Origin: Mugil cephalus | Lineage: Eukaryota > Chordata > Actinopteri > Mugiliformes > Mugilidae | Length of the DNA stretch: 64,000 nt | Reading direction: 5' to 3' | Assembly: GCF_022458985.1 (NCBI RefSeq) | Contig: NC_061774.1 | Coordinates: 14,498,616 to 14,562,615, forward strand | In this document: positions 52,001-55,000 of the stretch, in pieces | Layout: each line of letters opens with the position of its first letter | Numbering within the stretch: the stretch's first letter is position 1 | Translations under genes and position numbers: made by a program | The notes under the pieces: generated by a model | The model's input: the letters and a program-made list of their open reading frames with translations, nothing else | Databases searched by the model: none | What the model was told of the DNA's origin: nothing

Positions 52001-55000
52001 CCACATGGACCTGGACCATGAGAGGATGTCCTACCTGCTCTACCAGATCCTTTGTGGCATCAGGCACCTGCACTCTGCTGGCATCATTCACAGGGTATCT
52101 GAAGTATTAACGTTATTGTGGACGATAAGAGGAATATTAAAAATGTGCTTTACCCAGATGGCAACGATAAAGAGCGTGAGAAGCAAAAAAAGCCAAGCCT
52201 CCGAAAAGGAGCAAATCCCCATAGACGTCCATGTTAAAAAGGCCAACCCTATATCATTATTCATTTTAGCATTGTTGAACTGATTCCTTTATTTTTATTT
52301 AGGTTTCTGCAAATTCTGCCTAATTAAGGGAATCCCCACTTTGAGTGACCTGAGATAACAGGTAGCAGAGAGTCCAGACTGCTTTAGCTCCGCCCCAACA
52401 AGACCTTCAGGTCCATATTTGGAGTATCTGAGTCTGGGCGGAGTTAAGTTCATCCAACATGGCGATCGCAGGCTCAGAGAGAAGAGTAGTTCGCACACTG
52501 AAAAAAATGACTTAAACAAAGTCTTCACAAAGGAGTTTTTCATTTAATTTTGGGAGCAAGAGCAGACATTTCAGCCGTCCAGCTATTCTCAATGCTCGCA
52601 GTGAATCAGCCACAGACATGCAATTAACAAATACCCAGGTGGGTTAAGGGCAAACCCATTTCGGGCCATTGTTTGAGGTTCAGAATTACTTTAGTTTTAT
52701 TTTATTTCGAACATAAAAAAACAAAACAGAACAACAAAGATAATTATATAGAAACATAAATAACAGTAAATGAGAATATAAATAAATAAACAATAAAGTA
52801 ACAGATTAAATATTCCGTCAGAATCCAATGTGTGACGTCACAATGGGCTTTACGATATGACATGAAAACATGACTAATGACATTTTTCAAAAGTAACTTT
52901 ATGCTTTGGTGATGTCTCTCTCGTAGAAAATGTTAATTATGTGTAACTTCACCCGACAGTGATTATTACTTAGCTATTGAGTCAATAGTTTAGTCCTTGA
53001 CATTTATTAATACATGAAAAAAGTAACTCAGGTGTAAACATTTAATGTTTGAATTTTCAGTAGAGTTACTGATTTTCTGTCCCCCCAGGATCTGAAGCCC
53101 AGCAATATTGTGGTGAAGTCAGATTGCACTCTGAAGATCTTGGACTTTGGCCTGGCGAGGACGGCCTGCACTAACTTCATGATGACCCCCTACGTGGTGA
53201 CCAGATACTACCGTGCCCCAGAGGTCATTCTGGGCATGAAGTATAAGGAGAACGGTGAGTGCGACGGAGCACCGGACTCACAAGAGTAGTTTTATTTTAT
53301 GTCTCTGAAACATAAACAGGTGAAAGAATATAGTTCTACCATGTTTTGAAGAGCCAGTTTTTCATCTTTGTGAACGTCGGACATTGTTTTATTTGAAGGT
53401 TCACCTGCTAAGAGCCATCATTAGGTTTTGTTGCTGGCTATGATAACATGGTTTGTCCAGCGGATTCAGTGCGCGACAGCATTTGTTTAGCAAAGAAGGA
53501 CATCGCAGCTGAATATGTGGTGCAAATTTGTTGTTGCCTTATGCAAATCTCTCTGGCCCAGCTGTGCTCTTGATGGATACCAAGTTTGGCTGCGTTTGTT
53601 ATTTACGACGAATGTCTTCATTACGCCACTACTCTGCTCCAGTGGACCTGTGGTCCTGAAATGATCTCTCACAAAGTCCTCTTTCCGGGAAAGGACTGTA
53701 TCCTTCCATGGTCGTCCTCTTAAAAACTCACCGGTTGTTTTCTTTAAGCAGAAGACGCTGAGATGTTGGGAAATTGTTTATTTAAGCTTGACTCAGACTA
53801 CAGGGGTTTTAAAATCCCTTAAGAAAACCACAGATATTATTCTCTCTAATCTAATCTCCAAGTCACGCATATTGCATGATTTGAAAATGATTGTGCAACA
53901 CCCTGCACACACCCACCACTGCTCTTATTAAGGTTACGCGACACATCCGGGAGAATTGAATGATTCACTGCACATGATCTCAAGGACAGAGTCAAGCTGT
54001 AAGTTTGTAGTAATACTAGTGGAAGACAAAAAAAAAAAGTTGCAGGATGAATAAGAGTGGGTGAGAAAGTAGCTGGGCAGATGTAGTAGATGACTATTCT
54101 TCAGTGGAAACCAGAGAAGAAGCTTCATGTGGCAACACCGTTACACTAGTTGCTTGACAACTGTTTTGAAAACATTGACCTAATCATCCAGATTTGAAAT
54201 AAATAATCTGTACTAAAATGGGACTTTCTGAATGTCAGGAGGTGAATCAGGTTTAAAAACTATTGTAGTCTTTGGCACAAGATCCAAGCAAAAGAAAACT
54301 GAACCATGACTCTGTTTGTCCACTAAACGTAGTCTGGTAATCCCAGTTCTTTCTAAACTAGTTTAACTACTCGGCTGATCTTGATCCTTGATCAAACATC
54401 TCATGGGAGCAGGACAACATGAGAAGAGGAATTTACAATAGGACTTATCAGAATTTTATGTGACTTGGCCTAACGTGAAACTCCCTTTGCCAGGCTCAGA
54501 GTGTAGCTTCTCTCTTCGAGCAGTCAGAATTAATAGTGTAACTCGTCCGTGCAGACTGAGCCGGGAGCTCTTTGTGGAGATCTGGAGACGTTATCAGAGC
54601 ACAGAAAGCTTTCAGCTTCAATGAAACTGAAATAGAACGAAGAGAGGAGTTAATGGCCATTTGCCACTCATAAACACTCTCAAACAAACGGTAAACTCAG
54701 AGAGAGAGAGAGAGAGAGAGAAGGAAGGAGAGAGACTAACTACATCCTACTCTGCTGATGCGCACGCCCGGGAAAGTGAAGGAGAGAGCAACAGCTGTGT
54801 AAACTGATAAGCAGAGCTGAGGAGAAAAGCCTGGAAGACTGCGATTGGTTTCCAAGCCAGAGAGGAAAGAGAGGCAGCCTGAAGATGCCTGCGATGAAAG
54901 CAGCGGGCCGCGGCGCGGCTCGAGGATGGACCGGAATAATGAGAGCGGAGGGTTTTACTGTTTCAGCCTTTCTCATTCAAATTTAAACCCGAGAGCATGT

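Follow-up and report, generated by a model that had tools for sequence, protein, structure and literature searches.

A mapk9 gene of Mugil cephalus in which exon 6a is probably disabled by a 17-bp deletion and its splice signals are kept

In the mapk9 gene of this fish, exon 6a, one of two mutually exclusive kinase-domain exons, has very probably been disabled by a single 17-bp deletion, with its splice signals kept and exon 6b intact. The window, by which we mean the whole stretch of 64,000 nucleotides that was analysed (C5:14498616-14562615), matches the genome, searched over 635 Mb in 24 contigs, at one place. A remnant beginning at 53643 lies between the end of exon 5 (53254) and exon 6b (55158) on the same strand. 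Exon 6a, the HK-type exon of JNK1-alpha and JNK2-beta, is an open frame of 72 nt; the remnant has 55 nt and a stop after VDLWS, and is on this sequence a disabled former exon 6a, no longer a working member of the pair. The earlier note had described it as the disabled second mutually exclusive kinase-domain exon of mapk9, and its place, splice sites and paralog homology bear this out. The features that the argument uses are as follows, in window positions.

49032..58370, + strand: mapk9 coding region, 11 coding exons, with exon 6b at the variable place
53089..53254, + strand: mapk9 coding exon 5 (DLKPSN...KYKEN), donor GTGAGT, ending in phase 1
53618..53642, + strand: acceptor region of the remnant, with AG and, from -22 to -4, 14 pyrimidines in 19 bases
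53643..53697, + strand: what is left of exon 6a (the HK-type exon of JNK2-beta), 55 bp long, with the frame VDLWS-stop
53698..53705, + strand: presumed U12-type 5' splice site GTATCCTT of the remnant
55158..55229, + strand: live exon 6b (KG-type, JNK2-alpha exon), 72 bp
55230..55237, + strand: presumed U12-type 5' splice site GTATCCTT of exon 6b
56163..56187, + strand: U12-like branch point (TCCCTAAC, by eye) and AG before exon 7
56188..56370, + strand: mapk9 coding exon 7 (IDQWNK...DKLK), the exon joined to either 6a or 6b

Exon ends in mapk9 were placed by GT/AG and by homology to JNK2, and the resulting coding frame of 1263 nt including the stop (420 aa) is open throughout, with no frame-breaking indel in any of the 11 coding exons. 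When live exon 6b and exon 7 were compared together with PDB, MAPK9 was closest at 152 bits and the best MAPK8 reached 134.5, and judged by these scores the gene is mapk9 (JNK2), nearest to MAPK9 among the JNKs, as the earlier note had named it. The junction points given there (53254, 53643, 53697 and 56188) likewise match our gene model. A reading of mapk9 as a whole-gene pseudogene is ruled out by the open 420-aa frame. The donor after coding exon 4 (52095-52102), GTATCTGA, is unusual and partly U12-like.

The other JNK genes of the same genome provide the controls. A genome probe with exon 5 picked out four JNK-like places, on C5, C19, C13 and C16, which scored 115.9, 105, 97.7 and 97.7 bits, the next score being 47.2 bits; these scores cover the best candidates, and among them no second mapk9 gene was found. 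By exon 7, the gene on C19 is mapk10 (123.1 bits to MAPK10, 114.8 to the best MAPK8) and that on C16 is mapk8, all 25 of the matches listed being to MAPK8 (best 110.1 bits). Since exon 7 of C13 shares 58 of 60 residues with that of C16, both are taken as mapk8 genes. The six alternative exons of these three genes are each 72 bp long and open, with the HK-type placed before the KG-type, and each has AG before it and GTATCCTT after it. Exon homology and order agree in 4/4 JNK genes and the order 6a then 6b in 3/3 paralogs, in all of which exon 6a ends in T. Both exons are intact in three of the four JNK genes found, and in mapk9 only the second is. The mapk10 exon 6b on C19 (L014:4148-4219) is an intact KG-type exon with a U12 donor; human JNK3 is usually described with the HK-type exon only.

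Alignment of the segment with the mapk8 and mapk10 alternative exons of this genome confirmed a shortfall of 17 bp. As the live exon and the paralog 6a exons have 72 bp and the remnant 55, exactly 17 bp are missing, in agreement with the original description. The gap fits best after remnant base 13 (TGGACCTGTGGTC), and the 14 bases said to be kept at the 5' side are these 13 together with the G of exon 5. The acceptor AG of the remnant ends at 53642 and its donor GTATCCTTCC begins at 53698, and the coding letters of its 3' half are of the HK..LFPG.D type and end in T, which on joining to exon 7 gives YID. The remnant matches the 72-bp exon 6a of C19, C13 and C16 at 38, 42 and 40 bases, respectively. 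One internal deletion of 17 bp would account both for the missing codons, which followed VDLWS and preceded the E of EMISHK, and for the shift of frame, and mapk9 would then yield JNK2-alpha-type protein only.

Such a likeness could in principle be a chance resemblance within an intron, a reading whose probability we regard as practically nil. When both strands of the 64-kb window were scanned for one-gap matches (17 bp, free placement), 53643 was the best site, with 42/55 to exon 6a of C13; the live exon was the runner-up with 39 (34 in shifted register), and the best sites outside both exons, among the six best per strand, reached 30 and 31. Chance is refuted by 200 dinucleotide shuffles of the intron, which gave a maximum of 34 and a mean of 28.6, and also has against it the exact flanks of AG and U12 donor and the right place, strand and order. 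In blastn of the interval from exon 5 to exon 7, the 3' part of the remnant with its donor (53670-53705) matched exon 6a in 3/3 paralogs, with E-values of 7e-6, 7e-6 and 0.004.

An intact second 6a exon in the same intron, the finding that the earlier note had named as weighing against its own claim, was looked for by blastn of the exon 5-7 interval against the paralogs and was not found, the matches being the remnant, 6b and short chance matches. A 24-aa 6a probe of the genome matched the 6a exons of C19, C13 and C16, and on C5 found only live 6b. By this probe and the blastn of the interval, the KG-type exon is the sole intact version found in mapk9, as had been claimed. A search of viral contigs for relatives gave 17 pattern matches, of which 0 were confirmed.

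A different account puts the gap down to faulty assembly, or to an allele that is private to the sequenced fish or segregating, with most conspecific fish having a working 6a. It would suit an exon that is otherwise well preserved and bears a single clean lesion, known from one assembly in which the single genome match leaves it without a second haplotype. However, there is no tandem repeat at the deletion site, the 11 coding exons show no other sign of such an error in the form of a frame-breaking indel, and 17 bases are atypical for a homopolymer-length error. We consider this account unlikely, and the coding loss of mapk9 exon 6a, as read from the sequence, is solid for this assembly.

A U12-type intron has an RTATCCTT donor and a TCCTTAAC-like branch point near its 3' splice site, and GTATCCTT, which agrees with this consensus, we take to be a U12-type 5' splice site. 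It stands directly 3' of 8/8 exons 6a and 6b in the four JNK genes, and a U12-like branch point, identified by eye, precedes exon 7 in 4/4. Within the window GTATCCTT occurs twice on the + strand, exactly at the remnant and at 6b, and not at all on the - strand; 20 shuffles put the number to be expected there by chance, on the + strand, at about one, so that the weight rests on the exact position of the motif, its mere presence being weak evidence. The remnant and live donors are identical over their first nine bases (GTATCCTTC), so that the earlier note was right that the donor is shared but put the identity at six bases, and it missed the U12 nature of this donor. The intron downstream of the remnant and of 6b appears, by donor and branch point, to fit the U12 type. 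At the other end of the remnant, its count of acceptor pyrimidines falls among those of the other seven 6a and 6b acceptors (10-16 of 19).

These signals bear on how the two exons can be used. With a U2-like donor at exon 5 and a U12-like acceptor at exon 7, each transcript should take either 6a or 6b, and the choice is interlocked also because both exons combine a U2-like acceptor with a U12 donor. The shared U12-type donor thus explains either/or splicing, and the remnant should not join the live exon; under the U2/U12 rule, neither joining of the remnant to 6b nor joining of exon 5 to exon 7 should be expected. Skipping both 6a and 6b would keep the frame. In the available text of two papers, competition between two U2-type acceptors and two U12-type donors is what makes JNK exons 6a and 6b exclusive (PMC8329584, PMC3584512).

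Were the remnant included, the reading would be ...YKENVDLWS-stop, ending at codon 209 of the gene model, 482 nt before the last coding-exon junction, and the immediate in-frame stop predicted by the earlier note is thus found. The distance of this stop from the last junction exceeds 50 nt, as for the premature stop of a poison exon, and a remnant-containing transcript would present a standard context for nonsense-mediated decay and is expected to be removed. Any transcript taking 6a would stop at codon 209 and go to decay, and residual use would therefore lower the output of JNK2 rather than alter its substrate preference.

Read in its own frame, the 3' half meets no stop upstream as far as 53574, as would be needed if this half were still used in frame, through another acceptor, as a shortened or altered exon. 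However, 10/10 of the AGs from 53255 to the remnant that are in phase with the 3' half lead through stops, so that a simple acceptor shift gives no rescue and another AG acceptor in this intron is refuted. The product would, moreover, be without DxWSxG, a segment of the kinase fold. We regard continued use of the 3' half as extremely improbable.

Besides the deletion, the remnant is little decayed, HK..LFPG.D and the splice signals being kept, and the simplest reading of this sequence would be a single, fairly recent lesion. At the 17 remaining codons, the three paralog 6a exons encode identical amino acids (0 differences) and the remnant differs from each at 5; at 17 codons, live 6b has 7, 5 and 4 differences from C19, C13 and C16, a range into which the 5 of the remnant falls. 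Exon 7 of mapk9 is identical to those of the paralogs at 37-41 of 60 residues, and these among themselves at 46-58 of 60. As mapk9 is freer overall, the substitutions in the remnant give no independent sign of decay. At bases common to all three paralogs the remnant differs at 6/33 and the live exon at 2/28 (p 0.27), and 17 codons are too few for dating the loss from substitutions.

Comparison of differences at codon positions 1+2 with those at position 3 gave Fisher p values of 0.020, 0.0025 and 0.0025 for the live exon against the three paralogs, and of 0.10, 0.18 and 0.09 for the remnant, which leans the same way in a test of 17 codons with low power. Coding constraint on the remnant is thus not significant against any paralog, which would be in keeping with a silent relic, that is, an exon now never recognised and without effect. 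Against this reading, the little power of the test and the shared leaning count for something, and the acceptor pyrimidines and U12 donor look no worse than their counterparts in the live exons. We hold complete silence to be a serious possibility, though one short of even. For the disabled exon 6a, residual use that is low and unselected, or none, is most likely.

A further alternative is that the shortened exon is kept by selection as a regulated poison exon, an off-switch by which the cell-type programme selecting one of two JNK isoforms elsewhere decides here whether JNK2 is made. In its favour, the exon that the lesion made non-coding retains an in-frame stop, an acceptor and the full 8-base U12 donor, exclusive choice follows from the U2/U12 arrangement, and control by poison exons and unproductive splicing is known, as excerpts of PMC11062102 describe. 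Recent loss, however, accounts for the same retention without selection, and the surroundings of the remnant have few YCAY (Nova-like) motifs, with 2 in the 200 nt upstream and 4 downstream. We think such selection improbable. It is similarly doubtful, and to be held against the odds, that the exclusive pair has turned into an on/off switch in which the isoform-toggling programme sets the amount of JNK2, with decay by way of the minor spliceosome. In the 200 nt on each side of exon 6b of C13 (reverse complement of L016), YCAY occurs 16 times upstream and 12 times downstream; the other three 6b exons have 2-5 per side, in counts made without a shuffle control.

The accessible part of PMC8699841 includes a table in which exon 6a corresponds to JNK2-beta and 6b to JNK2-alpha, and mouse Mapk9-beta primers given in PMC5026472 translate to an HK-type exon running into YID. 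By this table and these primers, the exon that the gene has lost is that of JNK2-beta. A tie of the alternative JNK exon to substrate handling, which had been put forward for this stretch, is supported by PMC5026472, which reports that in mouse JNK2-alpha is the high-activity form towards c-Jun and JNK2-beta the low-activity form; if the same holds here, this fish keeps the high-activity type. On the neuronal use of the pair, the consulted sections appear to conflict: PMC8329584 gives the neuronal JNK exon as 6a, owing to Nova, and PMC5026472 has NOVA promoting Mapk8-beta and Mapk9-alpha, which are 6b forms by the table of PMC8699841.

The closest known systems are the U2/U12-interlocked 6a/6b (7a/7b) pairs of vertebrate MAPK8 and MAPK9, which, as far as the available parts of PMC8329584 and PMC8699841 describe them, are like the mapk9 pair in order, acceptors and GTATCCTT donors, as well as in phase 1 and the U12-like branch point of exon 7. 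Unlike them, mapk9 here has a 6a of 55 bp, frameshifted and with a stop, and one isoform lost. The mapk10 (C19) and mapk8 (C13, C16) pairs have the homologous exon, donor and place, but are all 72 bp and open, unlike the remnant. Poison exons, from what excerpts of PMC11062102 report, likewise bring in, when included, a stop well ahead of the last junction; this candidate for one differs in having arisen by the breaking of one exon of a mutually exclusive pair. Exons 7 and 8 of zebrafish jnk1a and jnk1b form a fish JNK alternative pair with developmental use, and both are expressed, unlike the broken 6a of mapk9 here; the available text of PMC7259801, from which this is taken, was found to hold no description of a jnk2 exon pair in zebrafish. 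No report of this mapk9 exon loss was found in the accessible portions of the open-licence literature.

Mutually exclusive exons that arose by tandem duplication tend to be very old and to be retained; according to excerpts of PMC9741552, over 90% of the ones annotated in human have bony fish orthologues. U2/U12-locked clusters are rare, with five (0.79%) in one human survey (PMC5740500, in part). The loss of an alternative exon is in itself an ordinary kind of event; this one stands out a little, the splice signals of a U2/U12-locked pair having outlasted the lesion in one of its members. With three JNK genes of this genome serving as controls for the fourth, the loss offers a natural test of the role of the JNK2-beta exon, and also of a U2/U12-locked choice when one option becomes a dead end. 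If the exon is still recognised, the choice between two isoforms becomes a make-or-break choice.

A TG microsatellite of 24.5 copies (55087-55135) ends 22 nt before live exon 6b. A TG-rich tract also lies at the acceptor of mapk10 exon 6b (C19), with a longest run of 16 nt; at the 6b acceptors of the two mapk8 genes there is no such tract, the longest run being 4 nt. UG repeats are known binding sites of CELF and TDP-43, and the TG tract could therefore influence the choice of exon.
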